Position numbers and translations under genes: made by a program. From assembly GCF_002161215.1 (NCBI RefSeq), contig NZ_NFMB01000004.1, positions 372,001 to 436,000 of the forward strand: a DNA stretch of 64,000 bases, read 5' to 3'. Of the stretch, positions 5,691-18,746 are shown in pieces. This stretch comes from Flavonifractor sp. An10 (lineage in GTDB: Bacteria; Bacillota; Clostridia; Oscillospirales; Oscillospiraceae). Position 1 is the first letter of the stretch. Every line of letters starts with the position of its first letter. The notes beneath the pieces are model-generated. The model was not told the origin of the DNA and ran no database searches. It saw only the letters and a list, made by a program, of their open reading frames with translations.

Positions 5691-6044
5691 TCACATTGAC
5701 ATGCCGCCCATGGAGCCGTCCTGCTTCTGGGCGGGCTGGGCCATCTGACTGATCTCCATCCGGTAGGCGTCCAGCACAGCCTGGTCAAAGGTCTGCCGGA
5801 ACTCTGAGGTGCAGGGGAAGCAGATGTCCCGATACTCCCCATGCACCTGTCGGCTGGGCATAGAGACGAAGGGCCCGTTCTGCCCCGCGCGGATCTGGAT
5901 GCCGCGGATGGCAAAGCAGCCGTTGAGGGTGACGCTGGCGTCCGCCAGCACCGGCCCCTTGGCGGTGGGGCGGTACAGCCGGACATCAATTTCGGTGGGA
6001 AGCTGGGGCCGGGCGGCTGCTTCCTGCTGCGCTTGCTGTTTCAT
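5691..6044 (-). CDS. SpoVG-family protein with added C-terminal tail
   Basis: A 117-residue SpoVG-family protein. Residues 17-95 carry the family pattern: IDVRLYRP, ASVTLNGCFAIRGIQIRAGQNGPFVSMPSR, EYRDICFPCTSEFRQTFDQAVLDAY. Known SpoVG proteins are small site-specific DNA/RNA-binding regulators. Family members normally stop soon after the last helix; here a Gln/Pro-rich linker and the tail GSMGGMSM are added, and the same tail appears on unrelated neighbours. The start lies within the end of the upstream gene (59-base overlap) and is supported by AAAGAAGGA. It probably has a regulatory role in the element (inference). Confidence 0.85.
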   Translation of the reverse strand: MKQQAQQEAAARPQLPTEIDVRLYRPTAKGPVLADASVTLNGCFAIRGIQIRAGQNGPFVSMPSRQVHGEYRDICFPCTSEFRQTFDQAVLDAYRMEISQMAQPAQKQDGSMGGMSM

Positions 6045-6702
6045 GACACATTCCTTCTTTCAAATTTTTATTCTGCTCCAACCGCTCCATGGTGCGCCGG
6101 GCCAGGAGGCGGAACTCCCAGGGCTCCAGCTCCAGGGGGCGGTAGTCGCCTTTGTCCGTGATGCCGTCCGCCCGCACTTTGAGCACCAGGGGCAGGACAG
6201 CGGCAGATTCCTTGAGCGCCGAGTGTGCCAGCCAGCCCTTGCCGGCGATGTACACCCACCGGAGGGCGGAGGCCGGATTGCCGGGGACGTCGGGCCAGAG
6301 GTATTTCCCCGCCAGCTTTTTGCGGCGCTGTTTCTTGTTGGTTGGGATGGGAGCCAGGATTTTGTCCTCCATCTGGTAGCGGAGGCCCAGGGCCTCCACG
6401 CAGGCGCGGACGGCCCGGCGGGCCTCCGGGGTGTCTGCCCAGGCGGGCAGCGGCTCCCCCAGCTCTGAGGCCAGCACGTCCTCCCCGTCTTCATCCTTTG
6501 GAAGCAGGGGCACGCTTTTTACCAGCTCCAGCACGTGGAAGCCGTCCGTCACGCCCAGCACCTTCCGCTTGGTAATAGGGATGCCGCGGTAGTGTGCCAG
6601 GGCCTCCCCCAGTTCCGGGAACTGCCGGATGGTCCAGCCCTTTCGGAGGAAGCCGCCCCGGCCCAGCCGCAGGTCATCCATGGTGTAATAGGCCAGGCTC
6701 AT
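5986..6702 (-). CDS. Conserved element protein of unknown function
   Basis: Unrecognised 238-residue soluble protein with no signal peptide or membrane helix. It has a basic central patch (TNKKQRRKKLAGKYLW, about residues 121-136) that could bind nucleic acid. The ATG overlaps the stop of the upstream AbrB-like gene (ATGA), and its own C-terminal codons overlap the start of the SpoVG-family gene by 59 bases, so it is inside a tightly packed operon. It does not carry the MGGMSM tail. Its last roughly 20 residues come from the region that also encodes the next gene's start and may be poorly conserved. Confidence 0.65.
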   Translation of the reverse strand: MSLAYYTMDDLRLGRGGFLRKGWTIRQFPELGEALAHYRGIPITKRKVLGVTDGFHVLELVKSVPLLPKDEDGEDVLASELGEPLPAWADTPEARRAVRACVEALGLRYQMEDKILAPIPTNKKQRRKKLAGKYLWPDVPGNPASALRWVYIAGKGWLAHSALKESAAVLPLVLKVRADGITDKGDYRPLELEPWEFRLLARRTMERLEQNKNLKEGMCHETASAAGSSRPAPASHRN

Positions 6703-7067
6703 TTGGCATCCCCCTCCCGAATCATCAGAGCGCCCAGCCCATACAGATCCACGCCGCAGTGCTCCAACATGTCCAGGAATTCCGCATCATAGGCCCGGAG
6801 TGCCCTGGGGACTCTTTTGCGCGGCCCAGTCTCTGCCGCCCGGCTGTCCAGGGCGAGGCAGACGAGCATGCCGATGTTCAGGTTGTGGAGCAGCCGGATG
6901 GTTTCCAGCCGTTCCCTGGCAGTGGGCTCCTGCCGGGTAAGCGCCACACAGCCGTGCCCCACATGGAGGGTCAGACGCTCCGCGTCCTCCAGCCCGGAGA
7001 GCTGGAGGGCGGCCCGGGGGACGGCAAGGGTTTTCTTATTTGTGTCGTGGCAGATGGTAAATTTCAT
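6699..7067 (-). CDS. AbrB/SpoVT-like N-domain protein, putative regulator
   Basis: A 122-residue protein. The first 50 residues (MKFTICHDTNKKTLAVPRAALQLSGL...LTLHVGHGCVALTRQEPT) resemble the swapped-hairpin beta fold of AbrB/MazE-type DNA-binding domains: a short strand, a PRAAL turn and helix, then two strands ending in a regulator-like loop. The C-terminal half is helical and unrecognised. ATG at 7067 has GAGG 11 bases upstream; a GTG four codons earlier is the alternative. It overlaps the next gene by ATGA. The AbrB assignment rests only on pattern and is tentative. Confidence 0.5.
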   Translation of the reverse strand: MKFTICHDTNKKTLAVPRAALQLSGLEDAERLTLHVGHGCVALTRQEPTARERLETIRLLHNLNIGMLVCLALDSRAAETGPRKRVPRALRAYDAEFLDMLEHCGVDLYGLGALMIREGDAK

Positions 7068-7088
7068 CTTCTGTTTCACCTCGTATTC

Positions 7089-8102
7089 TCAGTCCTGCGG
7101 CCAGTTCCACACCCGGGGCAGCCGCCCGGTGGGGGCGGACAATATCCGCAGCTCCGGCCGGTCGCTGGACTCCATAGCGGGCAGCTCCAGCAGGGAGAGC
7201 TGGCGGTTGAGCATGGGGCCGGGGTCAAAATTGGTCATGAGCAGCTCGTGGTACGTGGAGTCCTCCTGCCGGGCCATGGGGTTGGGGCGGTCAAAGCCCA
7301 CGATGTAAAAGTCCGGGGCAAAGAGATCCAGGATGTCCGGATGGCTGTTATAGGAGAGCACGATGTGGCTGTCCCGCATTGCCGGGGCGCACAGGCAGTC
7401 GTGGAGCCGGACGTGATCCCGGAGGGCAAAGGAGGGCGCGTACATTTTCTCGGCCTCCAGATAGGGCGGGTCCGCATAGATTACCGCACCGGGCCGGGCG
7501 TACTGCCGAACCACGTCGCAGCAGTCCTTGTTCTCCACCACCACACCCTGCAGAGCGTCCGAGGCATGGCGGAGCAGGCCGAGGAAGCGGCGCAGCTCCA
7601 CGCTCCGGCCGCCGAAGGTCTTGCCGGTAGCGCTGTAGCTGTACCGGATGCTCAGGTAGTAGGCTGCGGCCCGCTGCACGTCCGGCAGGCTGGCCCGGCC
7701 CACCAGGAGCTTCTTGATCTCCTGCCTGTCCATGGGCGGGAAGTAGTCCTCCGCAATCTGGAACTCTTCCTCCAGGTAGTCCTTGGGGTCATACTCATGG
7801 TTGAGGAAGCGGAGCACCAGCTCGAAGTCTGCCCGGGCATGGAGGGGTAGGAAGTTCAGCTCCTTGAGCAGCGCCAGGGGCCGGTCCCGGGCGCTGCGGA
7901 ACAGGTTGGCCAGGTCGGCGTCCATATCGTTGTACACCCGCAGGGGGGCATACCCGGCGCCCAGGCCCAGGGTCACCGCGCCGCTGCCCCCGCAGACCTC
8001 CAGCAGGCGGGGCGCCCTCCTGGGGAGCAGCTGGAAGATGTAGGGGAGCAGGAAGAGCTTCCCGCCCACCCAGGGGAAGAAGGGCTTAGCGATCCGCCCC
8101 AC
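7089..8102 (-). CDS. DNA adenine methylase (D12 class)
   Basis: N6-adenine DNA methyltransferase using S-adenosylmethionine. The N-terminus has the D12-class motif I region (KPFFPWVGGKLFLLP, then LLEVCGGSGAVTLGL) and motif IV DPPY is present in VIYADPPYLEAEKMYAP, with a helical target-recognition insert between them. Length (about 337 residues) is a little above Dam. No restriction nuclease gene is adjacent, so it looks like an orphan methylase protecting element DNA or marking it (inference). The start is uncertain: GTG at 8102 begins the conserved region but its GGGGGAGG abuts it. The start overlaps the end of the winged-helix gene. It lacks the MGGMSM tail. Confidence 0.85.
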   Translation of the reverse strand: MGRIAKPFFPWVGGKLFLLPYIFQLLPRRAPRLLEVCGGSGAVTLGLGAGYAPLRVYNDMDADLANLFRSARDRPLALLKELNFLPLHARADFELVLRFLNHEYDPKDYLEEEFQIAEDYFPPMDRQEIKKLLVGRASLPDVQRAAAYYLSIRYSYSATGKTFGGRSVELRRFLGLLRHASDALQGVVVENKDCCDVVRQYARPGAVIYADPPYLEAEKMYAPSFALRDHVRLHDCLCAPAMRDSHIVLSYNSHPDILDLFAPDFYIVGFDRPNPMARQEDSTYHELLMTNFDPGPMLNRQLSLLELPAMESSDRPELRILSAPTGRLPRVWNWPQD

Positions 8103-8409
8103 CTCCCCCGGACAGGCGGAAGGCCCCCATGGAGCCCTCCAGACCGTGGATGGACGCATCCACGCCGTCCCGCATCCGCCGGAGGTGCCCGATGGTGGCA
8201 ATCACCTCCCAGGCGTTTGCGGGGAAAAAGTAGCCGGTGCGGTCGCTGCAGACGGGGATGCCCTCCACCCGCAGGTTGTGTACCATCTTCCGCAGTTCCG
8301 CCTCGCGGACGCGGAACATCTTTTTCAGCTGCTTACCGCTGATAGCGTTTTCCCGGCCGGGGCAGTGCTTCTTCAGGTAATGCAGAAGTTCTTTTTCTTT
8401 TGCTCTCAT
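8086..8409 (-). CDS. Winged-helix DNA-binding protein
   Basis: A 107-residue protein. Residues 1-62 (LLHYLKKHCPGRENAISGKQLKKMFRVREAELRKMVHNLRVEGIPVCSDRTGYFFP) read as a winged helix: three helices with a recognition helix in REAELRKMVHNLR and a wing ending in GYFF. The rest is short and Gly-rich. It is probably a small regulator or replication-associated DNA-binding protein; such domains are common in phage and conjugative elements. GGAGGAGGACGTC precedes the ATG. Its end overlaps the methylase start by about 17 bases. A terminator lies upstream, so this gene may begin a separate transcript or depend on read-through. Confidence 0.7.
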   Translation of the reverse strand: MRAKEKELLHYLKKHCPGRENAISGKQLKKMFRVREAELRKMVHNLRVEGIPVCSDRTGYFFPANAWEVIATIGHLRRMRDGVDASIHGLEGSMGAFRLSGGGGADR

Positions 8410-8446
8410 GACGTCCTCCTCCGGGCCGCTCTCCCGAAAAAGGGCA

Positions 8447-8490
8447 CAAAAAACAGGGGCCGCTGTCCCCTTCGGGAAAACGGCCCCTGT
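8447..8490 (-). terminator. Intrinsic terminator, minus strand
   Basis: Ten-base arms ACAGGGGCCG (8453-8462) and CGGCCCCTGT (8481-8490) form a hairpin followed on the minus strand by TTTTTTG. It lies after the 133-residue tail-bearing gene and before the winged-helix gene, splitting the element operon in two or acting as an attenuator. Confidence 0.75.
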
Positions 8491-8519
8491 TTCATCATTG
8501 ATACATCGTTTGCCTGGGC

Positions 8520-8921
8520 TTATGACATGCTCATGCCGCCCATCTGGGGCTCCGCCTGGCACTGCTGCTGGAAGGCCTGCACAAATTCCGCAAACCCCTG
8601 GCCATCTGCCCGCTCCGGGTGCTCCGCCAGGGAGACGCACCACTGGCTGCAGGCCGCCTCCAGCGCAGACTCCTCCACCCACAATAAGCGTTCCGGCGGC
8701 GTCTGAGGTGGGGATTCCAGATCCATATTGTTGAACTCCGGGTAATTGGCCCTGCAGTATTTGACCATACTGATGCCCGTATGGGCCCGGAAGGCGGTAT
8801 CGCTGGGCAGTCCGCACTTGGGGGTTCGTTCTTGCGGCGTTGGATATCGCTGTTCCCGGCGGACAAACTCGTCCACACGCTGGACGCACAGCTCACGGGT
8901 CCACTTCTTGTTATGAAACAT
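8520..8921 (-). CDS. Unknown element protein ending in MGGMSMS
   Basis: Unrecognised 133-residue soluble protein, Cys-containing (CVQRV, CGLPSD, YCRANYPEF, CSQWC). The C-terminus is a Gln-rich linker (FQQQCQAEPQ) followed by MGGMSMS, nearly identical to the end of the SpoVG-family protein. The start is supported by GGGGAGGATCTGA before the ATG. It is the last gene before the 8.45-kb terminator. No family function can be given; the tail suggests it belongs to the same tagged set as its neighbours. Confidence 0.65.
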   Translation of the reverse strand: MFHNKKWTRELCVQRVDEFVRREQRYPTPQERTPKCGLPSDTAFRAHTGISMVKYCRANYPEFNNMDLESPPQTPPERLLWVEESALEAACSQWCVSLAEHPERADGQGFAEFVQAFQQQCQAEPQMGGMSMS

Positions 8922-8939
8922 TCAGATCCTCCCCTTTCT

Positions 8940-9935
8940 CTATCCCATCGTCATCCCTGCGGGTACATGGGTTTGCGTCTGCTGCCTGGCAATGTATGCA
9001 CATCCGTCTGCCGTCTGGGTATAGCCCTTCTGCTTCAGCAGGTCACGCCCGTAGCGTTCCAGGTCGAAGCAGCCTGCCGCCGGTTCCGCCTCGCCCACCA
9101 CTGCCCGCAGTTCCTCCAGGGCGAAGTCCCGGAGCTGGTCTGCGGTCACGATTTTATAGTGGTGCAGGCTCTGCGACAAATCCAGGGCGGCGGGCAGGGT
9201 GGTGCAGCCCTCATGCTCCAGGGCCCAGAGATAGGTCTGGAGGAAACCCTTCTGCCCCTGATTCTGCTCCTGGAGGATAAATCCCAGGTTCTGACCGTCG
9301 TAAATCAGATCCTCCAGCCGGCCATCATAGGCCGTCTCCAGCCCGGTGATGCCCGGCAGGCTGCACCGGGCCTCCAGAAGGGTACAGTCCTGGATAGTGG
9401 GCACCTGCAGGGCGTCCAGGGCCAGCCGGATCTCCCCCGGCCGCACATCCATGATGTCGTTGTAGTCCGGCAGGGCCAGCCACACCCCCTCCGGCACCGC
9501 CGGGGAGCTCAGCTTCAGCCGCAGGCTCCAGCTGTATTCCGGCCCCGGCAGGGTGACGCCGTCGTATTGCTGGAGCGGTTCCCGCTCCGGAAAGATCACA
9601 TAGCAGCCCCCAACAAACAGTCCGGGGTGCTGTTCCCCGTAACGCCTGCCCAGCTTGTCCAGGTCGATGTAGTCCCGCAGCGCCAGGAGCTTGGCGTCGT
9701 TCTCCTCCAGGTCATACAGGCCCAGATCCTCATAGCTCTGGATGCCGCCCACCACCTCGTACTCGTCCAGATTAGCCAGCAGGTTGACGGCCTCCCTGGC
9801 ATCTGCGGGGGCGCCCCGCTGGAGGGCCGCATCCAGGGCGATCCCCTCCCGCACGGTCAGCACCTCCATCCGCTCCCGCAGCCAGCCCTGTTCCTCCGGC
9901 CTGCCGGGGATGTTCGCCAATTCTTCTCTGTTCAT
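8940..9935 (-). CDS. ArdA-like element protein (putative antirestriction), tail PAGMTMG
   Basis: Acidic 331-residue protein that looks distantly related to its larger neighbours. Stretches such as REAVNLLANLDEYEVVGGIQSYEDL and LDKLGRRYGEQHPGLFVGG parallel the helical segment of ArdA-type proteins in Firmicutes elements (LNxLAxRL, then xFxA). ArdA proteins mimic B-form DNA with an acidic surface and block type I restriction after transfer. The assignment is tentative because key segments are diverged. It ends in QQTQTHVPAGMTMG, a variant of the shared tail. Start at ATG 9935 with GGAGATC upstream; one base separates it from the preceding gene. Confidence 0.5.
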   Translation of the reverse strand: MNREELANIPGRPEEQGWLRERMEVLTVREGIALDAALQRGAPADAREAVNLLANLDEYEVVGGIQSYEDLGLYDLEENDAKLLALRDYIDLDKLGRRYGEQHPGLFVGGCYVIFPEREPLQQYDGVTLPGPEYSWSLRLKLSSPAVPEGVWLALPDYNDIMDVRPGEIRLALDALQVPTIQDCTLLEARCSLPGITGLETAYDGRLEDLIYDGQNLGFILQEQNQGQKGFLQTYLWALEHEGCTTLPAALDLSQSLHHYKIVTADQLRDFALEELRAVVGEAEPAAGCFDLERYGRDLLKQKGYTQTADGCAYIARQQTQTHVPAGMTMG

Positions 9936-9936
9936 A

Positions 9937-11103
9937 TCATGATCTCCTCATCTCTATGCCGCCCAGCTTTGGCTGGGGCGGCAGCGGTTCCTGCACCGGC
10001 TGGCTGTCCGCACGGGTCAGCAGGCCGTAGTCTGTAAGCTCACCCCCATACTGCTGGATCAGCGCCTCGCCGTAGCCATATAGGTTTAGGTACCGGCACA
10101 GTAGGGCGGCCTGCTCCTCACCTACGGCGGAGCGCAGTTCCCCGCGGGCCACATCCTCCGGGGAGGCGGCGGAGCGATCCAGGCTGTAGGCGTCCAGCCG
10201 CTCCGTCAGAGCCATGGCCTCCTCCAGGCTGGCGGGGGGCGACGCCTCCAGCACCGCCTTGTACTTGACCAGCCGCAGCGGATCCCGGTCTGCCAGCACC
10301 GTCAGCCGGATGGCCAGGCAGTTCAGGGTATCCAGCCGCTCCGGGACGGCCCACTCCGCCGGGACTTGGGGAATCCGGCTGTGGAAGGCGGTGACGGCAC
10401 AGTTGGAGAGGCCCACAGCCTCCATCTGATCCCGCACCTCCACCAGCTCCTGCCCGGCGGGGAGGGTGAGCTCCGCTTGCTCCTCCCCAAGTTGGAACTC
10501 AAGATGGAAGATGCCCGCCGGGGCCTCCGGCGCGATGCGGGGCGCATGGCTTTGTGCCGGCTTCCAGCTTCCATCCGGCGCTACAAAGCCCTGCCTGGTG
10601 AAGATACCGCCCTCTGCCTCACGGATCCGGCGGCCCAGGAGCTGGAAGTCCAGCAGCTCAAACACTTTGTCCGGCAGCCCATCCAGCTCTGTCAGGAAGC
10701 CGTTTTCCGCATAGAACCGGCCCAGCGAAGCGTCATTTGTGGCCTCGGGCACCACATGGCAGTGCTTGGCCTGCTCGGTCAGGGCAATGAGGGCGTCCGG
10801 CTCCATAAGCCTGCCGTCCTGCAGCCTGATCAGTCCCTCAAAGGCGGTGCGCTGCTGTTCACTCAGGCCGGCCAGACGCTCCGCCAGGACGTTGAGCGTT
10901 GGGAAATCCTCTCCGGACTGGAGGGTGGGGAATAGGAAGGGGAATTCCCCGCAGTCCTCTATCTCCCACTCCACCCTGGTATCCGGCGCTGGCCGCAGCT
11001 GCTCCCAGGCGTCCAGCACGGCCCAGGGCTCCGCCGGCACGTCCAGGGTTACATAGACGTCTTTGTCCGGGTTGCACAGGGATACCGTAAAGATCTTATC
11101 CAA
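9937..11103 (-). CDS. ArdA-like element protein with internal duplication, tail LGGIEM
   Basis: Acidic 388-residue protein with two similar halves: LNVLAERLAGLSEQQRTAFEGLI (about residues 71-93) and LNCLAIRLTVLADRDPLRLVKYKAVLE (about 263-289). Both match the LDYLARRLDSFDGYEAAQFQA pattern of the clearer ArdA-like protein at 12753-13688. A duplicated ArdA-like fold acting as a DNA mimic is a reasonable inference. It ends in QPVQEPLPPQPKLGGIEMRRS, a variant of the tag. The start is TTG at 11103, overlapping the upstream stop by eight bases; GGGGGG from that gene's tag codons serves as ribosome binding site. Confidence 0.55.
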   Translation of the reverse strand: MDKIFTVSLCNPDKDVYVTLDVPAEPWAVLDAWEQLRPAPDTRVEWEIEDCGEFPFLFPTLQSGEDFPTLNVLAERLAGLSEQQRTAFEGLIRLQDGRLMEPDALIALTEQAKHCHVVPEATNDASLGRFYAENGFLTELDGLPDKVFELLDFQLLGRRIREAEGGIFTRQGFVAPDGSWKPAQSHAPRIAPEAPAGIFHLEFQLGEEQAELTLPAGQELVEVRDQMEAVGLSNCAVTAFHSRIPQVPAEWAVPERLDTLNCLAIRLTVLADRDPLRLVKYKAVLEASPPASLEEAMALTERLDAYSLDRSAASPEDVARGELRSAVGEEQAALLCRYLNLYGYGEALIQQYGGELTDYGLLTRADSQPVQEPLPPQPKLGGIEMRRS

Positions 11104-11851
11104 GGCTCATTCCCCCCATCGTCATCGTCGTTCCGTGCTTCATATCCTTCGCCGGGGCCTGCGTCTGCCCGAACCGCTCCGCCTCCGTCTGGATGCTCCA
11201 GCCGTCTATCTGCCACAGGTGGACGTAGAACTCCCCGCCGTCCACCCGGATTGCCTGCTGCTCCAGGCCCTCGCCCCAGCCGTCTGATGCCTGGCCGCTG
11301 AGAAAGTCCTTCAGCCCGGCCAGCTCCTCCGGGGAGAGCTGGCCGATGACCTGGCACTCGGCCACGCCCCACAGCCGGCCGTCTCTGGCCTCTGCCGTGA
11401 ACACGGCGGAGCGCACCTTGGCGTCCAGGATCTCTTTGTCGTACCAGTGCATGAGGCCCCGCTCCGCCTCCGCCGGCCTGCGGTTCCGAACCATGGCGGC
11501 CAGAATCCTGTCTTCGTACTCCAGAAGCGTCCGGCTGTCCCATTCCTCACCAATCTCGTCCAAATCCCCCCATTCATTCCGGGCATGGAAGCTGGCGGTC
11601 ATGGGCATGTACAGCTTGAGCAGGGTGGGCTCCGGCGGGTGGACGGAGAAGAAGTCCTCCCCAAGGGCCAGGATGCGCTCACCTCCATCACTCTGCCGGA
11701 CATGGAACCGGCCCTCGTCATCAATGTGATCCAGCTTTCCGGCCTCCTTCAGCGTGTTTACGGGATCATCCAGCTCCCACGTCTGGACCCGGCTGCCCGC
11801 GGGGAACTGATCCCGCAGGAACTCCAGCCACTCCTTTGATAAATCCTGCAT
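11096..11851 (-). CDS. DUF4314-like element protein, tail TMGGMSLG
   Basis: A 251-residue protein. The first 60 residues (WLEFLRDQFPAGSRVQTWELDDPVNTLKEAGKLDHIDDEGRFHV) match the small beta-barrel domain DUF4314 of Firmicutes conjugative elements, normally written GTRVxLxxMDDPxxxxxGTxGTVxxVDDxG. The remaining part (LKLYMPMTASFHARNEWGDL to DGWGEGLEQQAIRVDGGEFYVHLWQ) also looks like a widespread element protein of unknown role. It ends in KDMKHGTTMTMGGMSLG, one of the best tag matches. Ribosome binding site AGGAGG, 10 bases before ATG. Confidence 0.65.
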   Translation of the reverse strand: MQDLSKEWLEFLRDQFPAGSRVQTWELDDPVNTLKEAGKLDHIDDEGRFHVRQSDGGERILALGEDFFSVHPPEPTLLKLYMPMTASFHARNEWGDLDEIGEEWDSRTLLEYEDRILAAMVRNRRPAEAERGLMHWYDKEILDAKVRSAVFTAEARDGRLWGVAECQVIGQLSPEELAGLKDFLSGQASDGWGEGLEQQAIRVDGGEFYVHLWQIDGWSIQTEAERFGQTQAPAKDMKHGTTMTMGGMSLG

Positions 11852-11864
11852 GATGGTTTACCTC

Positions 11865-11957
11865 CTATTTTGCCGCAAGTGTAAAGGCCGACTCCCAAAA
11901 CGGGAGCCGGCCTTCAACGGGGTCTCTGCACATGTCCTGTCTTCTCTGATAGTTCAT
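11865..11957 (-). CDS. Possible 30-residue small protein over a terminator-like hairpin
   Basis: ATG at 11957 is preceded by GAGAGGGGAAAGGG and opens a 30-codon frame (MNYQRRQDMCRDPVEG, then RLPFWESAFTLAAK) that stops inside the ribosome binding site of the next gene. Codons near its end form a hairpin, AAGGCCGACTCCC (11884-11896) with GGGAGCCGGCCTT (11902-11914). It could be a leader peptide controlling the downstream operon by attenuation, or simply a terminator. The hairpin is clear; translation is a guess. Confidence 0.35.
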   Translation of the reverse strand: MNYQRRQDMCRDPVEGRLPFWESAFTLAAK

Positions 11958-12024
11958 AGCCCTTTCCCCTCTCTTGGTAAGCACACAACATACCACAGTG
12001 TGCCCGTAATATCCAGCAGTTTTT

Positions 12025-12735
12025 TCACATCCGCTGCATGGGCGTCTGGCTCTGATTTCGCTCCAGCCACAGCGGGTGACAGGCCACCTCCGCGATACCC
12101 AGATCCGCATTACAGGTGATATGGGCGGCCACGGCGGGGCAGTCCGGCTGGAGCTGGAACAAGGCCTCGGTGAGCTCTGACCCCCAGCCGTGCAGGATAC
12201 AGCGGGGCCCGCCAATCTTTTTGGCAAACTCCGGGTGATCCATGGTGAGGCAGGCCATGGCCTGAGTGGTGGATATGCCTGCTTTCCGGCCATATGTGAT
12301 GGCCAGCTTCAAGGCATGCTGCGGGTTGAACCGTCCAAAGTCCATGGTGTAGAACCGCTGCTCCCGGCCCTCCTCTAATACCGTGCAGACTGCAATCCGG
12401 CTGGGCTCCTCCGGCCGCTCCGGCCCGAAAAAGCCCATGAGGGCGCCCTTCACCGCCAGCTGTGACACCTCCGCCGGGGTGCGCCCGGCCTGGAGGTAGA
12501 CGGCGGCGGCAAACATCTCACTGGGCAGGGCGGCGTTCTGGTGCTGGATGAGCTCATAGGCGCCCTGGAGGGTTTCCCCGCTGAAGTTCCGCGCCACCAC
12601 CCGCAGGGCGGTGAGCATGTCGATATACTCCGACTCCGCGCACTCCCGGTCAAAGCGGTACAGCGCCTCGGTGGTGACGGGATCCGGCCTGGGAACCAGC
12701 TCATTGAGCTGCCGGATAAATTCTTTTTTCTGCAT
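12025..12735 (-). CDS. Unknown element protein, tail TPMQRM
   Basis: A 236-residue soluble protein of a type seen in Firmicutes integrative elements but without known function. It has two parts: an all-helical N-terminal half (QKKEFIRQLNELVPRPDPVTTEALYRFDRECAESEYIDML) and an alpha/beta half with IAVCTVLEEGREQRFYTMDFGRFNPQHALKLAITYGR, suggesting a self-contained domain. It ends in RNQSQTPMQRM, which has the Gln/Pro linker and closing Met of the tagged set but not the Gly-Gly. ATG at 12735 has GAGGAGAAAAAAG upstream; the longer reading frame lacks a site. Confidence 0.65.
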   Translation of the reverse strand: MQKKEFIRQLNELVPRPDPVTTEALYRFDRECAESEYIDMLTALRVVARNFSGETLQGAYELIQHQNAALPSEMFAAAVYLQAGRTPAEVSQLAVKGALMGFFGPERPEEPSRIAVCTVLEEGREQRFYTMDFGRFNPQHALKLAITYGRKAGISTTQAMACLTMDHPEFAKKIGGPRCILHGWGSELTEALFQLQPDCPAVAAHITCNADLGIAEVACHPLWLERNQSQTPMQRM

Positions 12736-12752
12736 CTTTTTTCTCCTCTGGT

Positions 12753-13688
12753 TTACATTAGAATGTCGCCCATGGACGGCCCATGGCTGGGCTGATCCCT
12801 GCCGGCCAGCAGGTGTACCAGGGTTTTCAAATCCTCCGGCGCAATCCTCTCCGCCGCCTGGCACAGCCGGTTGAGTCCGAGTATGGGCAGATGCTCCACG
12901 GGAATCCTGTTGAAGACCGCACCGGGCAGGGTGCTGTCCACCACCCGGAAGCGCACCTGGGAGCTGTACTGGATGCCGGCGCGGCCCAGGAGCCGTTCCA
13001 GCCTGGCCTGGCTGTCCGGCAGGAGCAGCAGGGTGCTCTGCCCTTCGCCGGCCGACGCCTCCAGGAGCATGCTGTATTCCCTGTCTGCATAGCCCGGGAA
13101 GGGGCCTCCCTCCCGGTAGAGCTGTTCCAGCTCCATACCGTTGTCATAGAGTACCCCATAGGGGGTAACACTACCCTCGTTGTCTGAAATCAGGAGCAAT
13201 GCGGTCTCCACACCGTCTACGTTTTCCAGCTCCTCCGCGCTGGTACAGCCGCCCTCCAACGTCATGTAATGTCGGCGGCCAACAGCGTCCAAATCTGAAA
13301 AGTCCGTTATCACTGTGGCTTGCTGGCAGCAGAAAGTTAGATTGATGAAGCCTGTCATATCGGATATACCCAACCGGACTGCTGCGGCCTGGAACTGGGC
13401 GGCCTCATAGCCGTCAAAGCTGTCCAGCCGCCGGGCCAGGTAGTCCAGCTCATCCAGGTTGGCCCCCACCTTCTCCAGACGCGTGAGGATGGGGAAGCCG
13501 CTCTCCAGCTCGTCCACCCGGCTGTCCCGCTCTGTGGGATGGCCCAGCCTCATAGCGGCCAGGAGTTCCAGGGTGCGCTCATACTCCTGGGCGGGGATAG
13601 GGAAGGGGACAGTTACCTGGCCGTACTCCGGGTGTGCCGCGTTGCTCAGGGCACAGCGCAGCACCGGCCGTCTGTTCTGTGTGGTCAC
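12753..13688 (-). CDS. ardA: ArdA-like antirestriction protein, tail SMGDILM
   Basis: The clearest ArdA-family protein of the window, 311 residues and acidic. Around residues 78-145 it reads LDELDYLARRLDSFDGYEAAQFQAAAVRLGI then INLTFCCQQATVITDFSDLDAVGRRHYM, the pattern of Firmicutes antirestriction proteins that mimic DNA and inhibit type I restriction (and often modification) enzymes when an element enters a new host. The end RDQPSHGPSMGDILM is a degenerate tag. GTG start at 13688 overlaps the upstream stop (GTGA); GGAGGG lies upstream. Experimental antirestriction activity of this branch is not something the sequence can prove. Confidence 0.6.
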   Translation of the reverse strand: MTTQNRRPVLRCALSNAAHPEYGQVTVPFPIPAQEYERTLELLAAMRLGHPTERDSRVDELESGFPILTRLEKVGANLDELDYLARRLDSFDGYEAAQFQAAAVRLGISDMTGFINLTFCCQQATVITDFSDLDAVGRRHYMTLEGGCTSAEELENVDGVETALLLISDNEGSVTPYGVLYDNGMELEQLYREGGPFPGYADREYSMLLEASAGEGQSTLLLLPDSQARLERLLGRAGIQYSSQVRFRVVDSTLPGAVFNRIPVEHLPILGLNRLCQAAERIAPEDLKTLVHLLAGRDQPSHGPSMGDILM

Positions 13689-14371
13689 ATCTGCTGCCCT
13701 CCTGCCTCCGGGCCATGGCGGGCGATGTAATCCTCCAGCGGCCTGGGGTTTTCCTCCCCATGCAGGTCATATACCATATCGTCCGCCGCCTTGCGCACCG
13801 CCGGGTCATCCGTCAGGGTCTCAAAGCGGAACCCGGTCACATCCTTCATGGGCAGCTCCTCCCGGATTGTCCGGAGGTACTCCTGCGGGTCTGTAAACTC
13901 CATGCGCTCGCCGTTGGCGAAGGTCACCCGGCCCACTGGCCTGTCCATTATCTGCCGGCGCAGGTCATAGCAGTAAAGGTAGCACTGGTATTCTCCCGGG
14001 CTGGGGGTGCACCGGAGGCAGAAGCGGTAATTCCCCGCCTCCGCCAGATACCCATAGCTCCGGCCGTCCTCCGTGATGGCCCCGCCGTTCCGGCGGCAGA
14101 ATCTTTCCATAGAGGGCAGGTCCCTCAGCGGCCCGTCCGCCCGCATAGCGTCCACGAACTGCTGCAGGGCCTCCTTGAACTCCGGCGTGTTGAAGTGATC
14201 CCCGTTGTGGGGCCACCACGTATGATAAAATCCCCTGCCGCTGGAACCGAAGTCCATCCGAACATGGCCCACTGTGCCCAGCGCCCTGTCCGCCTGGTCG
14301 TCTGAATAGAACAGGCCGGCCTCCTCCCGGGCGGCCGGCCGCAGGGGGAAGAGGTTGTGATATGGGTTCAC
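13685..14371 (-). CDS. Unknown element protein, tail AGGQQM
   Basis: Unrecognised 228-residue soluble protein. Visible features are a Gly/Trp/His segment (GSSGRGFYHTWWPHNGDHFNTPEFKEALQQFVD) and a beta-rich centre (YRFCLRCTPSPGEYQCYLYCYDL) with several Cys residues. GTG at 14371 has AAAGGAGGG upstream, a far better start than the ATG 12 codons earlier. It ends in ARHGPEAGGQQM, keeping Gly-Gly and the final Met of the shared tail. It overlaps the ArdA-like gene start by four bases. Confidence 0.6.
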   Translation of the reverse strand: MNPYHNLFPLRPAAREEAGLFYSDDQADRALGTVGHVRMDFGSSGRGFYHTWWPHNGDHFNTPEFKEALQQFVDAMRADGPLRDLPSMERFCRRNGGAITEDGRSYGYLAEAGNYRFCLRCTPSPGEYQCYLYCYDLRRQIMDRPVGRVTFANGERMEFTDPQEYLRTIREELPMKDVTGFRFETLTDDPAVRKAADDMVYDLHGEENPRPLEDYIARHGPEAGGQQM

Positions 14372-14373
14372 CG

Positions 14374-14652
14374 TTAAGTCCCTCCTTTTGCTTCTTGTAC
14401 CGTCCACCTGTCCGGGGCGTCAAACTTCCGCATCTCTGAGCGCAGGCACTTTCCATCCCTCCCCCAGCAGAGGAAGCCGTTGGCGGGGTAGGGGCAGCCC
14501 TCGCAGAGGGGGGAGCGGGTACACACCGGCCTGGGCGGAGGCTCCGCCGGGTGCTCCGGGGCGTACAGCTTGTGGGCACAATAGTGGAACAGCACCTGGG
14601 CATAAAAAATGGCGGCGCCCTTTTTGGCTCCGCCCTCACATAGACTGTTCAA
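14374..14652 (-). CDS. Small Cys-rich protein, putative zinc-binding
   Basis: About 92 residues with eight Cys, several paired: CAHKL, CTRSPLCEGCPYP and CWGRDGKCLR. The spacing C-x5-C-x2-C then C-x6-C suggests a zinc or iron-sulphur site. The start is probably TTG at 14652, eight bases after AGGGAAGG and inside the end of the upstream gene. No tag is present (ends QEAKGGT). The same codons (GGAKKGAA) contain a GCCAAAAAGGGC string that resembles the intergenic repeat of this element; this may be chance. Confidence 0.5.
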   Translation of the reverse strand: MNSLCEGGAKKGAAIFYAQVLFHYCAHKLYAPEHPAEPPPRPVCTRSPLCEGCPYPANGFLCWGRDGKCLRSEMRKFDAPDRWTVQEAKGGT

Positions 14653-15298
14653 GATGATGACCTTCCCTCTGTATTTGATTTTGCTCCGTTGCCGGCAGCT
14701 GTTCGTTGATCTGCTCCAGGAGGCGTCGGCACTGGTACTCCTGCTGGTAGGAGGCGGGGCCCTCGCCGCGGAGGAAGCCCTGCACCGCCTGGAGCAGTTC
14801 CTCCAGCTGCTCCCGGTCAAAGACCCGCTCCCGGGCCACCAGACCGGAACGGAGGGCGAAGTCCTCCTTGGCGCCCTGGTAATCCTCCATGTAGTAGTGG
14901 CCGTTGTTGACTCCTCTCCGGTCATAGTCCCGGGCCCATGTGACGAACTGGGCCCCCAGCAGTGTCTCCGTCCCGGCCAGCACCGTGCCGTTGAACTCTG
15001 CCAGCACCCGGTAACCATCCGCCAGACCTTCCGCCTTCAGCGGCGGGGCCGCCTCCAGAAGTGTCATGTACTCCAGCACCGTCCCCGCCGCTTCCCTGAC
15101 CTGTGCCAGGGCGGCCTTTGCCTTGTCAGTGTCCACCCAGGTGGGGTCATACCGGACGGCGCCGCGCTCCGTAACCCGGCACAGGATGCAGCCGTTCCAC
15201 TCCACCGGCAGCAGGCCGTCCTCCTCCACCGGCCGGGGCAGCAGCTCCCGCCTCCGCAGGGCGTATGACAGTTTCTCAAAATAGGCTTCTTTGGTCAT
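14636..15298 (-). CDS. Unknown element protein, tail LEQSM
   Basis: Unrecognised 220-residue soluble protein, mostly helical at both ends. The centre has a short beta segment (LPVEWNGCILCRVTERGAVRYDPTWV). It ends in LPATEQNQIQREGHHLEQSM: the Gln-rich linker and terminal Met are shared with tagged neighbours, but the Gly-Gly is lost. AAGGAGGAAAGGAAC precedes the ATG. Its stop region contains the start of the Cys-rich gene, so the two are likely coupled. Confidence 0.6.
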   Translation of the reverse strand: MTKEAYFEKLSYALRRRELLPRPVEEDGLLPVEWNGCILCRVTERGAVRYDPTWVDTDKAKAALAQVREAAGTVLEYMTLLEAAPPLKAEGLADGYRVLAEFNGTVLAGTETLLGAQFVTWARDYDRRGVNNGHYYMEDYQGAKEDFALRSGLVARERVFDREQLEELLQAVQGFLRGEGPASYQQEYQCRRLLEQINEQLPATEQNQIQREGHHLEQSM

Positions 15299-15394
15299 GT
15301 TCCTTTCCTCCTTGGGCTTAGCGCCCTATTTCAATTATCGTTTTGTCACCCGCTTGGGACTCCCATCAAGCCATCTTATCCACGGAAAATCGAT

Positions 15395-15490
15395 TCAGCA
15401 AATGGGACGAAAAAGTGTGTGCCCTTTTTGGCAGCGGCGATAAAGCCGGCACTCTACCATACTTCTCCAGGCACAAATGAAAAGTACCCG
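15395..15490 (-). promoter_or_regulatory. Structured intergenic repeat of the element, copy 1
   Basis: In the 225-base gap 15299-15523. The minus strand reads TTTGTGCC..GAGAAG.AT.G.AGAGTGCCGGC..., then TGCCAAAAAGGGCACAC. The same order of blocks recurs at about 17750-17850. Both copies sit in front of a tail-bearing gene in a leader position. The gap also holds AGCGCCCTATTTCAATT at 15321-15337, a motif repeated near 17.85 and 17.96 kb. A cis-acting RNA or regulator site is inferred. Confidence 0.5.
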
Positions 15491-15523
15491 GGCTGAAACC
15501 TGGATCCCGGTTGGGCCAGCTCC

Positions 15524-16180
15524 TCACCACAGCATCGTCTGCTGCGGGCTTCGGTCAAGGCCGTGGGCATTCAGTTCTTCACTGGTTGCAGTGCGGATAC
15601 CGATGCCATGCCGCGTCTCTGCCGCGACCAACCGCCCATCCCGGAGCATCTGCTGAATCAGGTTTTCGATGAACTGACCGGCAAAATCGTGTTTGCCATC
15701 CCTATCGTTGACCCGGCGCACAGAAAACAGTCGGGCGATATTTTCCACGCTGGGCCCGGTCAAATAGAGGTTCTGGCGCCTGGTCTGATAGTGCTTCAGG
15801 ATTTCCGCCTCGATTTCAGCCTGCCTGGAGCCCAGCAGAGTCAGATATTCCTCGTCTGAGAGCTCCATATACTTCTCATAACAGTCCACGCCCTGGCAGT
15901 GGAAGCACTCCGCTGGGGACAGAACCTCCCGTACTGCGGGGATCTCCTCTTCCCGGATTACCCCGCTAAACTCCATGGGGTGCAGGTACAATTCCTGCAG
16001 GCCCTTTGTAACGGTATCGCAGGTCCCGCTTCCCGGCCTGCCGGGATGGAGCTCCCAGCCTGCCCCTTGGAACAGCCTGCGGCTTTCCGCCAGAAACGCA
16101 TCCTCGGCGCCCTCGTCCGGCCAGCCAGTATCATATCGATAGCTGCTGGCAATTCGGATATAAACCTTTCTGTATGCCAC
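15524..16180 (-). CDS. Unknown element protein, tail QQTMLW
   Basis: Unrecognised 218-residue protein. A central Cys/His segment (SPAECFHCQGVDCYEKYMEL) could bind metal. The C-terminal third (IARLFSVRRVNDRDGKHDFAGQFIENLIQQMLRDGRLV) reads like a helical DNA-binding or winged-helix unit. GTG at 16180 has GAGGAG nine bases upstream and is preferred to the upstream ATG. The end GLDRSPQQTMLW is a weak member of the tag series. It is separated from neighbours by the repeat-bearing gap on its downstream side. Confidence 0.55.
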   Translation of the reverse strand: MAYRKVYIRIASSYRYDTGWPDEGAEDAFLAESRRLFQGAGWELHPGRPGSGTCDTVTKGLQELYLHPMEFSGVIREEEIPAVREVLSPAECFHCQGVDCYEKYMELSDEEYLTLLGSRQAEIEAEILKHYQTRRQNLYLTGPSVENIARLFSVRRVNDRDGKHDFAGQFIENLIQQMLRDGRLVAAETRHGIGIRTATSEELNAHGLDRSPQQTMLW

Positions 16181-16231
16181 CTGAAACCACTCCTCACTCA
16201 CGCACAAATATACGGCAAACCCGGCGGGAAA

Positions 16232-16678
16232 TCACTGCATGGACATCCCCTCCTGGCCCAGCGTCCTGTCCGCTCTGCCGATGCCCATATACTCGTCATA
16301 GCGCCGCAGGTATTCCTGATAGTTCTCCCCGCCGATTTCCTTCAGGAACTCCTCCTTGAACCGCCAGAGGGGATACCGGCAGAAGCCGCTGTGCCGGCTG
16401 AATCCTGTGTCTTCTGCAATGCCCTGCCGGAGCAGCTGGTCGGCAAAATAACAGTTGTTGGTGTCGATATATGCCCCGTTTTTCAGGCTGAGAAAATCCC
16501 CGAAGGACACCGTGAGCACGGCATATTCTTCTGCCTCATCCGGTGTGCTGCCCACCTTGTCCAGCACAATGGCCAGGCCGGGCAACTCCTTCCCCATAAA
16601 ATCTCTGACAGAGTAAAGCTCCACCTTGGGCTCCAGGGAAACCCGGTCACCCGCCCAGTCCGTAATCGTGAGGATCAT
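16232..16678 (-). CDS. DUF4313-like element protein, tail QEGMSMQ
   Basis: A 148-residue protein that matches a family found almost only in Firmicutes conjugative elements (DUF4313 as I recall it). Characteristic stretches are VSLEPKVELYSVRDFMGKELPGLAIVLD, YAVLTVSFGDFLSLKNGAYIDTNNC and FSRHSGFCRYPLWRFKEEFLKEIG. No function is known. It ends in GRADRTLGQEGMSMQ, a good match to the shared GGMSM tail added beyond the conserved domain. The ribosome binding site (AAAGG, far from ATG) is weak. Confidence 0.65.
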   Translation of the reverse strand: MILTITDWAGDRVSLEPKVELYSVRDFMGKELPGLAIVLDKVGSTPDEAEEYAVLTVSFGDFLSLKNGAYIDTNNCYFADQLLRQGIAEDTGFSRHSGFCRYPLWRFKEEFLKEIGGENYQEYLRRYDEYMGIGRADRTLGQEGMSMQ

Positions 16679-16714
16679 GATACCATCGCCAGCCTTTCAT
16701 GTGATAATTTCAAA

Positions 16715-17674
16715 TTACATCATCTGCACCATCCGCCCCTGTCCTTGTCCCTGCTCCGACTGGAGCCACAATGCCATCTCCGCCATGGCAGGGCTGAATA
16801 TGGGGGCAGGGGCTGTCTCGCCCCGCTGGATCGGGAGCAGGGCGCGCGTAACTTCGTCCAGCAGGGCCTTGTCCGGACACTGGTCAATCACAGAGCCGGA
16901 GGCGCTCAGAATCAGCTCGTAGGAGGTGTCCGTCAGGGTAACCCTGTCTGCAAGGGCATGGCCTGCCAGAAAGCCGGCAATGTTTTCAGGCGTGCCGTGC
17001 AGCAGGCAGCTTGTCCGGCGCCCGGCCTGATCCACAAAGGCATGCACCTGATCCCGGCTCTGGAACAGCTCGTTCAGCTTGATCCGCCTGACCAGTTCCC
17101 TGCCGGGCAGGGTGCGGCCTCCGGCACAGATGCGTGGAAACAGGGTGGGCAGATCCCGCTCACCCCAGCCGTCTGCAATGTCCCTCCTCCGCGGCAGCTC
17201 AGAGCGGATGTCCTCCAGGATTCCGGCATCCAGAGTCCGGCCGCGCAGATCGCTGTATAAATCCCGGAGTTCTTCCGGACAGTTCCGGAAGAGCTGCACC
17301 TCGTAGGCGTGATACGCCGCCAGCGGAAGCCCTTTGAACTGGAATGTATCCCCGCCCCCGGGGAGGCCCGCCAGGCAGTCCGGCTCCCGCAGGATGTTCC
17401 GGTACACCTCCTCCCCTCCGGCGATGAGCCAGGCCCGGAACTGGCTGAATCCGTCCCCCAGGCAGGGGATGCCCCGAGCGGTGGCAGCGGCCAGGAGATC
17501 CTGCCGGCAGGCGGCCTGCATGTATTCTTCCAGGATCAACTGCCAGTCCAGGATCTCCTCCATGGTGTGTTTTTCCAGGGCGGCAGTCAACCTGCACCGC
17601 TGTGTCTCCTGGTCTGAATAAGGCCCTCCTGCGTTGACGCTGTCGATGATACCCCAAAACATGTTTCTGTCCAA
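16715..17674 (-). CDS. DUF4240-like protein, first gene of element operon, tail RMVQMM
   Basis: About 319 residues. The N-terminus MDRNMFWGIIDSVNAGG..LTAALEKHTMEEILDWQLILEEYMQAA matches DUF4240, a helical domain of unknown role. The C-terminal part has no relative I recognise. The end SEQGQGQGRMVQMM has the Gln-rich linker and Met-rich close of the tagged set. TTG at 17674 lies seven bases after GGGGAGGG; ATG four codons later is possible. It is the promoter-proximal gene, directly after the structured leader at 17.75-17.97 kb. Confidence 0.6.
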   Translation of the reverse strand: MDRNMFWGIIDSVNAGGPYSDQETQRCRLTAALEKHTMEEILDWQLILEEYMQAACRQDLLAAATARGIPCLGDGFSQFRAWLIAGGEEVYRNILREPDCLAGLPGGGDTFQFKGLPLAAYHAYEVQLFRNCPEELRDLYSDLRGRTLDAGILEDIRSELPRRRDIADGWGERDLPTLFPRICAGGRTLPGRELVRRIKLNELFQSRDQVHAFVDQAGRRTSCLLHGTPENIAGFLAGHALADRVTLTDTSYELILSASGSVIDQCPDKALLDEVTRALLPIQRGETAPAPIFSPAMAEMALWLQSEQGQGQGRMVQMM

Positions 17675-17749
17675 TTTCAATCCCTCCCCAAAGTGCCTCT
17701 TTATCACTGTTTTTGTGGCCCTCGTCCGGATTTCCATCCTGCCGTATGC

Positions 17750-18146: not shown

Positions 18147-18222
18147 TGGTGACCCGTCGGGGATTCGAACCCCGGACCCACTGCTTAAAAGGCAGTTGCT
18201 CTGCCAACTGAGCTAACGAGTC
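18147..18222 (-). tRNA. tRNA-Lys (TTT)
   Basis: 76 bases with encoded CCA. The acceptor arm GACTCGT pairs with ACGGGTC, the T-arm is CGGGGTTCGAATCCCCG, and the anticodon loop CTTTTAA carries TTT. Last gene of the five-tRNA operon. Confidence 0.95.
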
Positions 18223-18225
18223 GTA

Positions 18226-18300
18226 TGGCTGGGATGGCTGGGCTCGAACCAGCGAATGCGGGAGTCAAAGTCCCGTGCCTTACCACTTGGCTACACCCCA
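18226..18300 (-). tRNA. tRNA-Gln (TTG)
   Basis: 75 bases with encoded CCA. Acceptor TGGGGTG pairs with CATCCCA, the T-loop is GGTTCGAGCC, and the anticodon loop CTTTGAC carries TTG. Confidence 0.95.
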
Positions 18301-18322
18301 GTGTCGCTGGTCTGTCATAAGC

Positions 18323-18353
18323 GAAGGGCCGGAGCGGGACGCTCCGGCCCTTC
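18323..18353. repeat. 13-bp perfect hairpin between tRNA-Gln and tRNA-His
   Basis: GAAGGGCCGGAGC and GCTCCGGCCCTTC flank a five-base loop. No T-run follows on either strand, so it is more likely a processing or spacer structure than a terminator. Confidence 0.7.
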
Positions 18354-18368
18354 CGCCTTGAGGTCTTA

Positions 18369-18445
18369 TGGGGTGGGAGACGGGACTCGAACCCGCGACA
18401 CTCGGAACCACAATCCGATGCTCTACCAACTGAACTACACCCACC
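18369..18445 (-). tRNA. tRNA-His (GTG)
   Basis: 77 bases including the extra 5' G that pairs with C73, as in all bacterial tRNA-His. The anticodon loop TTGTGGT carries GTG; the T-arm is GCGGGTTCGAGTCCCG. One acceptor pair (T6 with T67) appears mismatched. CCA is encoded. Confidence 0.9.
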
Positions 18446-18480
18446 ATATTGATTGCGGAGGAAGATGGTATACCTGAAGT

Positions 18481-18525
18481 TTGTCCGAACAGCGGACATG
18501 CCGGCGGCATGTCTGCCGGACAAAG
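18481..18525. repeat. Palindromic hairpin between tRNA-His and tRNA-Arg
   Basis: Outer arms TTTGTCCG (18481-18488) and CGGACAAA (18518-18525) enclose a second palindrome made from GCGGACATGCC and GGCATGTCTGC. A strongly structured 45-base spacer inside the tRNA transcript. Confidence 0.65.
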
Positions 18526-18592
18526 TCCCTTCCGAAGAAGGCGAGCCAAAGGCGAAGCCTGATTCGCAGTCAGGAACCGGGGAGAAAAGCAA

Positions 18593-18669
<77 letters not shown>

Positions 18670-18672
18670 GTA

Positions 18673-18746
18673 TGGAGCGGGTGATGGGAATCGAACCCAC
18701 GCGACCAGCTTGGAAGGCTGGGATTCTACCATTGAACTACACCCGC
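18673..18746 (-). tRNA. tRNA-Gly (TCC)
   Basis: 74 bases with encoded CCA. Acceptor GCGGGTG pairs with CACCCGC, and the anticodon loop CTTCCAA carries TCC. First gene of the operon, 36 bases after the -10 box. Confidence 0.95.

Follow-up and report, generated by a model that had tools for sequence, protein, structure and literature searches.

A Met/Gly-rich tail at the C-termini of unrelated proteins from an integrative conjugative element of Flavonifractor: a candidate recruitment signal for conjugation

The window analyzed herein is a 64,000-nt stretch of DNA from Flavonifractor sp. An10 (contig NZ_NFMB01000004.1, positions 372,001 to 436,000; G000:C10:372001-436000 in our numbering), of which the first 17.7 kb belongs to an integrative conjugative element (ICE) and makes up its right part. 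The transfer genes of this ICE are located to the left of the window and encode a MobP3 relaxase with a small adjoining protein, a TOPRIM-primase-like protein (family F23), and VirB4-like, VirB6-like and M23-like proteins, the last two being labels given by eye. Inside the window lies a row of minus-strand genes, and many of their products, although of unrelated families, carry a similar short C-terminal tail rich in Met and Gly. This tail had been pointed out by a first-pass annotation, and it was borne out when all the window protein ends quoted below were checked in the DNA sequence next to the stop codons. Two further tailed proteins are encoded to the left of the window, the primase-like protein just named (GPAMTME) and a protein ending GPVLGGMSL. 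The gene row is as follows; fractions give the members of each family (L-numbers denote the loci of relatives) that carry at least two Met within the last ten residues, unless stated otherwise, and family counts each include the window's own member.

5691..6044, minus strand: SpoVG-family protein of 117 residues (PF04026 at residues 19-95 only), tail GSMGGMSM at 5694-5717, Gly codons GGC GGC
5986..6702, minus strand: untailed gene (family F16, 0/14; GGM 1/14)
6699..7079, minus strand: untailed gene, AbrB-like according to the first-pass annotation, no Pfam match (family F7, 0/35)
7089..8102, minus strand: untailed D12 adenine methylase, PF02086 (family F3, 0/44; GGM 1/44)
8086..8409, minus strand: untailed gene, winged-helix according to the first-pass annotation, no Pfam match (family F6, 0/38)
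8520..8921, minus strand: 133-residue protein, no Pfam match, tail MGGMSMS at 8523-8543; the sole family member, in L098 (130 residues), ends HMGGMSMS
8940..9935, minus strand: ArdA-like protein (family F8, tailed 23/35), weak PF07275 match below the Pfam cut-off, tail PAGMTMG at 8943-8963
9937..11103, minus strand: ArdA-family protein of 388 residues (family F0, tailed 49/76), PF07275 at 33 bits, tail LGGIEMRRS at 9940-9966
11096..11851, minus strand: DUF4314 protein, PF14192 (family F1, GGM 33/54), tail TMTMGGMSLG at 11099-11128
12025..12735, minus strand: protein ending TPMQRM (12028-12045; family F59, Met-rich ends 3/3)
12753..13688, minus strand: family F2 protein (tailed 30/46; the representative in L052 matches ArdA), tail PSMGDILM at 12756-12779
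13685..14371, minus strand: family F5 protein (tailed 29/39; the representative in L059 matches LPD28), ending AGGQQM (13688-13705)
14636..15298, minus strand: family F4 protein (tailed 11/39), weak tail LEQSM (14639-14653)
15524..16207, minus strand: protein ending QQTMLW (15527-15544); one family member, in L098, ends QQMMLW
16232..16678, minus strand: DUF4313 protein, PF14190, tail QEGMSMQ at 16235-16255
16715..17737, minus strand: DUF4240 protein, PF14024, ending RMVQMM (16718-16735; family F81, Met-rich ends 2/3)

One of the ends first quoted, PKLGGIEM of an ArdA-like protein, had to be corrected, since the 388-residue protein in fact ends PKLGGIEMRRS; its family member in L098 ends QQKLGGMEMR. 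The endings that had been listed as weaker forms of the tail gave a mixed result, in that TPMQRM, QQTMLW and RMVQMM were Met-rich in 3/3, 2/2 and 2/3 family members, respectively, but the family of LEQSM in only 11/39. Another DUF4240 protein, in L079, ends DIKMEGM, and in a second ICE of the same genome a 157-residue gene in the same place as the DUF4313 gene ends TQDGMTMQ. The tail had also been placed outside the conserved domain of the SpoVG-family protein, and this agrees with the structure model of that one protein, which has high confidence as far as a helix that ends at residue 101, past the PF04026 domain, and then drops to a pLDDT (predicted local distance difference test) of about 54-56 with no secondary structure. 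Among SpoVG relatives of 23 loci the domain was conserved and the tail variable. By alignment, the window DUF4314 protein is without the C-terminal stretch of its L014 relative, yet has kept the tail. In the window genome, PF04026 matched only the two ICE copies, and a chromosomal SpoVG was not found. With the 133-residue protein as a query, a single weak match was obtained outside the window genome (2/245 genomes in all).

By a DUF4314 profile search we collected 79 loci from GTDB genomes and 80 loci from viral contigs (the best 80 of 118 and of 147 relatives, respectively), and called the genes with a purpose-made caller based on a codon model and interval choice, so that all gene counts are approximate; partial genes and genes shorter than 80 residues (60 or 50 in some scripts) were excluded before counting. 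In the 79 loci plus the own element, GGM was found within the last 12 residues of 141 of the 1310 complete called genes of at least 80 residues, where interior 12-mers of these proteins would predict 1.06. The corresponding number for the viral loci was 10/1056 against 1.37 expected, and several of these ten cases lie in L121-L123, which resemble the same ICEs. At least one GGM-tailed gene was present in 57/79 loci, and 48/79 carried at least three genes whose last ten residues include two or more Met. ArdA-family loci of the same bacterial family likewise showed similar endings on adjacent genes; the ArdA-family protein used as a query against plasmids gave no matches.

Since a Gly-Gly pair close to a stop codon could be read as the ribosome-binding site of the next gene, and Met codons as alternative starts, the tail might be thought to arise from translation signals alone. 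The first Gly codon is indeed GGA in 78 of the 145 GGM tails, compared with 19.6% of all Gly codons, and because of this excess some tails probably double as ribosome-binding sites. GGA is also used in 21/50 tails with the next gene missing or over 10 nt distant. On the other hand, 67/145 GGM tails do without it, including those of the window SpoVG and 133-residue proteins (GGC GGC). Moreover, the Met enrichment is left unexplained, and overlapping untailed genes of the window carry no tail. For the relaxase tails of 15 probable mobilizable elements described below, no gene was called on the same strand within 69 nt, and GGC comes first in their GGM or GGI forms. As a sufficient explanation, this by-product of ribosome-binding site and start codon was ruled out by the codons and by the tails far from downstream genes, and we give it next to no probability.

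The distribution over families is sharply divided. The last ten residues contain two or more Met in SpoVG (24/29), DUF4314 (27/54) and the families F0 of ArdA type, F2 and F8 given above, and the representatives of tailed families match ArdA, LPD28, DUF3849, YodL and DUF4240, the others being without significant Pfam match. The relatives thus keep the tail on the same families; its absence from them would have spoken against the first-pass suggestion. The classes named as tail-less also hold in the relatives, with 0/44 for the D12 methylase (GGM 1/44), 0/38 for the winged-helix, 0/35 for the AbrB-like and 0/22 for the surface protein F12; sortase F11 gave 2/25, and the untailed families of the same loci also include DUF6133, RcpC-like, VirB4-, VirB6- and T4CP (type IV coupling protein)-like proteins, T4CP (family F35) being, as VirB6, a name given by eye and not by family search. 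After 80% redundancy removal, the two-Met ending was carried by 169/262 proteins of tailed families and 1/212 of the others from the same loci (Fisher p 2e-58, for a split into tailed and untailed families drawn after the tails had been seen). Interior ten-residue stretches of the tailed families contained two or more Met in 102/6414 cases. In the own-chromosome control the number was 9/312 genes, two of the nine being tailed relaxases of other mobile elements; such endings are thus rare among chromosomal proteins of this genome, and an equal frequency there, which would have spoken against the tag, was not observed. A membrane-like stretch was detected in 0/410 proteins of tailed families and in 89/297 others. 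The DUF4314 genes of viral contigs (40 located, L124-L200) end at or shortly past the domain, and 0/40 are tailed. The shared, element-specific tail on unrelated proteins is thus real, conserved, and almost absent from the excluded classes.

Disordered C-terminal ends with small or hydrophobic last residues can be degrons, and the tail could in principle be read by a host protease that keeps the element proteins short-lived. The tail is confined to certain families and to relaxases of these elements, and is missing from the putative regulators (AbrB-like, winged helix), as well as from the viral-contig DUF4314 proteins, all of which argues against a degron and makes it quite unlikely.

The shape of the tail was profiled with 182 tails, which had been picked for two Met or GGM so that the Met and Gly values are partly given by construction: the enrichment of Met came to 7- to 17-fold over positions -1 to -5, that of Gly to 2.7- to 5.4-fold over -3 to -6. 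In the residues before this core, over -8 to -13, Gln rose 2.5- to 4.5-fold and Pro as much as 5-fold; over -8 to -15 the figures were 2.5- to 4.5-fold for Gln and 1.1- to 2.3-fold for Glu. The Gln/Pro-rich linker described at first is therefore present, with Glu in addition. Positive charge, by which the Agrobacterium VirB/D4-type signal is marked, is no mark of the tail, as at -1 to -12 Arg did not exceed 1.0-fold and Lys was absent from the six commonest residues listed. Gly-Gly-Met ends of GroEL-like proteins and the cargo peptides of encapsulins are possible parallels.

Relaxases were surveyed as well. With the own relaxase as a query, matches were obtained in 64/345 genomes of the order, and a survey of 40 loci gave a relaxase row for 39 (in an earlier reading, 5/30 loci were without a usable relaxase end); L322 gave none, although a 444-residue gene there ends DHEDEVSYDWQQTM. 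By the NCBIfam profile NF041499 (MobP3, cut-off 150), the relaxases of the window ICE, L302 and the sister-clade locus L297 scored 343, 394 and 367 bits, respectively; the profile was run on these three, and the remaining relaxases were classed by similarity alone. Sixteen loci contained a relaxase but no match to T4CP, VirB4, M23 peptidase or primase, and are probably mobilizable elements. By hand count, Met was located within the last four residues in 14/16 of these relaxases, and two or more Met within the last ten in 11/16, while 15/16 extended beyond a GH[KR]xDDHE-like block; examples of the ends are EEEQTMGGMTMGGW, EEEQNQGGMVMGGM, EEQPQMGWGGMAM, EEYRGPTMSM, EEQWPEMTM and PEQGWGGITMG. For L313 and L327 the surroundings were truncated. 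Read gene by gene, L302, L307, L320 and L321 contain small excisionase-like and MobC-like genes, the relaxase and an integrase-like gene (names given by eye), and look like integrated mobilizable elements. Some relaxase tails in the group of L302, L315, L321 and L327 end in Trp instead of Met (MGGW, SGW, KGW). Among 14 loci with secretion or primase matches, 10 relaxases ended in Met, with shorter tails (PTITM, SYQQTM, NGPSM) and several near-duplicates among them. In a tree of 34 rows, the mobilizable-type relaxases fell into two groups beside ICE relaxases ending SYQQTM, SYQHTM, NGPSM or EQKM. The relaxase query against plasmids gave 544 records, and among the matches listed most lay in the repeat-rich C-terminal half (Sel1/TPR); two of those listed were relaxase-like, one on an 8-kb Subdoligranulum plasmid with the end EPQM and the other a MobP3 on an Oscillospiraceae plasmid, with the end STQYEY and no tail.

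The same relaxases bear on the possibility that the tails are inherited 3' ends, spread by recombination and without function. The 3' flank of the relaxase gene is common to L313, L314 and L319, and again to L315 and L321, while the bodies differ, which suggests an exchange of gene 3' ends, and single-linkage clustering placed 375 proteins in one component, so that some tailed families may share ancestry. On the other hand, the tailed proteins carry at least nine different family assignments (ArdA, DUF4314, DUF4313, LPD28, DUF3849, YodL, SpoVG, DUF4240 and MobP3), and both codons and linkers differ among them. Close bodies swap the tail sequence yet stay Met-rich, as seen for L313 and L315, of which the relaxases are 90% identical with different tails; conversely, those of L302 and L321 are only 42% identical, yet have 13/14 tail residues in common. 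Inheritance without function is therefore considered very improbable.

Taking the distribution together, the tail probably represents, if only on balance, a C-terminal recruitment and translocation signal for the VirD4-type system of the ICE, copied by mobilizable elements; its binding and transport we infer from the pattern of sequences. The first suggestion, a sorting tag for co-transfer or docking, becomes the favoured reading through the relaxases of probable mobilizable elements with no detected secretion genes, which share the same kind of tail. Recruitment is the simplest account since the relaxase, a known substrate of type IV secretion systems (T4SS), shares the tail in elements that depend on a foreign secretion system, the cargo overlaps an arsenal proposed to be transferred in conjugation, and the machinery itself is without it; a tail common to unrelated proteins and missing from the secretion machinery is what would be expected if the tailed proteins are substrates. 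In the mechanism that we propose, a flexible Gln/Glu/Pro-rich linker would present a short end of Met, Gly, Thr and Ser, in which Met is the last residue or close to it, and this modular tail would be recognized by the VirD4-type coupling protein or an ICE-encoded adaptor in ICEs of Oscillospiraceae and related Clostridia. The soluble cargo would consist of anti-restriction ArdA, YodL, LPD28, DUF3849, DUF4314, SpoVG-like proteins and some TOPRIM primases, which might enter the recipient with or alongside the DNA, there protecting and establishing it. Mobilizable elements, with a relaxase and no secretion genes, could have the same kind of tail on the relaxase in order to be accepted in trans by the ICE machine.

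Several observations weigh against recruitment. The consensus of the tail is loose. ICE relaxases, which are obligate substrates, are often without it, including those of the window ICE (EDFPQFR) and of the second ICE of the genome (EVAMRLK) and 9/9 from sister-clade ICEs, which end EKKQAHGLKQG or similarly. Of the 16 mobilizable-type relaxases, that of L319 has an extension without a Met end (EQSPGPTL) and that of L312 no such tail. Primases (Toprim/DUF3991) are only partly tailed, with 2/7 full F23 members by a broad pattern; the SpoVG proteins of L100 and L109 are untailed; and in nine sister loci only 11/159 genes show the two-Met ending. In those loci 28/159 genes end in Met, compared with 5/325 chromosomal genes, and other proteins of the sister-clade ICEs carry a weaker tail (APTMQM, APTMRM, PGMSM, FVQSM).

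A tag by which proteins dock to an ICE hub or adaptor in the cytoplasm, such as a relaxosome or replication complex, would give the same tail distribution; accessory proteins would then be gathered in the donor and not exported. The flexible end seen in the model suits a docking peptide, and relaxases of mobilizable elements could also dock to an ICE hub. It may be argued, however, that anti-restriction proteins have no evident need for a hub in the donor, and a hub acting as the adaptor between cargo and coupling protein would itself be a variant of the recruitment signal. Docking alone therefore appears unlikely.

As to the known systems, C-terminal translocation signals have been described for effectors of Gram-negative type IV secretion systems, and those of Agrobacterium VirB/D4 and Legionella Dot/Icm are, like the present tail, short, modular, located at the extreme C-terminus and used by unrelated cargo (PMC10025392). 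The Legionella E-block is Glu-rich (PMC10025392), and the present Gln/Glu-rich linker might correspond to it. The present tail differs from these effector signals in its Met/Gly core, its location in Gram-positive ICEs, its presence also on relaxases of probable mobilizable elements, and its function, which is a predicted one. The domain inventory overlaps, in ArdA, YodL, LPD28 and Toprim, with that of the polyvalent proteins of phages and conjugative elements, an arsenal for which transfer during conjugation has been proposed (PMC5512222); ArdA, YodL and LPD domains are present here on a conjugative element, as in that arsenal. In the polyvalent proteins the domains are fused, whereas here they are often separate proteins with a common tail; the words 'methionine' and 'glycine', and likewise DUF3849 and DUF4314, are absent from the main text of PMC5512222. 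Conjugation by the F-type plasmid pED208, which uses a VirD4-type receptor, carries proteins such as SSB, PsiB and ParA into recipients, and both relaxase signals recognized by VirD4 receptors and conjugative protein transfer are known in Gram-negative plasmids (PMC8406263). This system is Gram-negative, and no common short tail is described for its transferred proteins, at least in part of the text of PMC8406263. For Gram-positive bacteria the question of conjugative signals and protein transfer is, by part of the account in PMC12857230, largely open. Canonical integrative and mobilizable elements have their own relaxase and no secretion system, and some, with MobP relaxases, are mobilized by VirD4-type helpers (PMC5704250); unlike in that paper, of which the main text is without the word 'C-terminal', the relaxase tails found here resemble those of ICE cargo of the same bacteria. 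A literature search for such a tail, covering part of the literature, found no paper, and one of the same coverage for papers combining these domain names found only PMC5512222; in further searches of this literature no title or beginning of an abstract described such a tail.

A possible second label was noticed in another ICE of the window genome (L201-L203, G000:C10:144001-204000), in which a motif [KR]PSIRERL stands near the C-terminus of three proteins, namely an ArdA-DUF3846-DUF4316 protein, a weakly ArdA-like protein and a DUF3801 protein. A 1747-residue ArdA-ArdcN-M78-YodL-LPD25-DUF4316 protein of L210 bears a motif of this kind, as does its neighbour, so that [KR]PSIRERL may possibly label the same kinds of cargo. 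Within the first 30 kb of this ICE the two-Met ending occurred in 0/26 genes and [KR]PSIRERL in 3/26; the respective counts were 0 and 1 of 17 in L204, 0 and 1 of 23 in L205, and 1 and 2 of 16 in L210, as against 322/1367 and 1/1367 genes in the Met-tail loci. The coupling protein of this ICE scored 579 bits with the CD1115-type profile (cut-off 250), and that of the tailed ICE L299 231, below the cut-off. In this small sample the distribution fits one label per secretion type. The wider proposal of a general address label in Gram-positive conjugation, namely that these ICEs inject separate anti-defence and establishment proteins, each labelled with Met/Gly, that mobilizable relaxases copy the label, and that other ICE types use [KR]PSIRERL, is put forward tentatively. 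If true, a readable tail would point by sequence to the cargo of many ICEs and hint at the helper used by each mobilizable element, a role in early protection within the recipient would be attached to several domains of unknown function, and a small peptide would be available for direct tests of protein transfer.

Some features of the window ICE itself may be added. The coupling-protein gene looks split, with parts at -28960 to -28577 and about -34041 to -32638 (window coordinates; L012 and neighbours) and, as read by eye, reverse-transcriptase- and transposase-like fragments between them; because of this apparent split, this copy of the ICE may not be self-transmissible. Three tandem genes, named by eye as tyrosine-recombinase-like, are located inside the ICE at -12512 to -9289 (L011). 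The end of the tailed gene row is adjoined by five tRNA genes (Lys, Gln, His, Arg, Gly) at 18147-18746, a possible insertion site.

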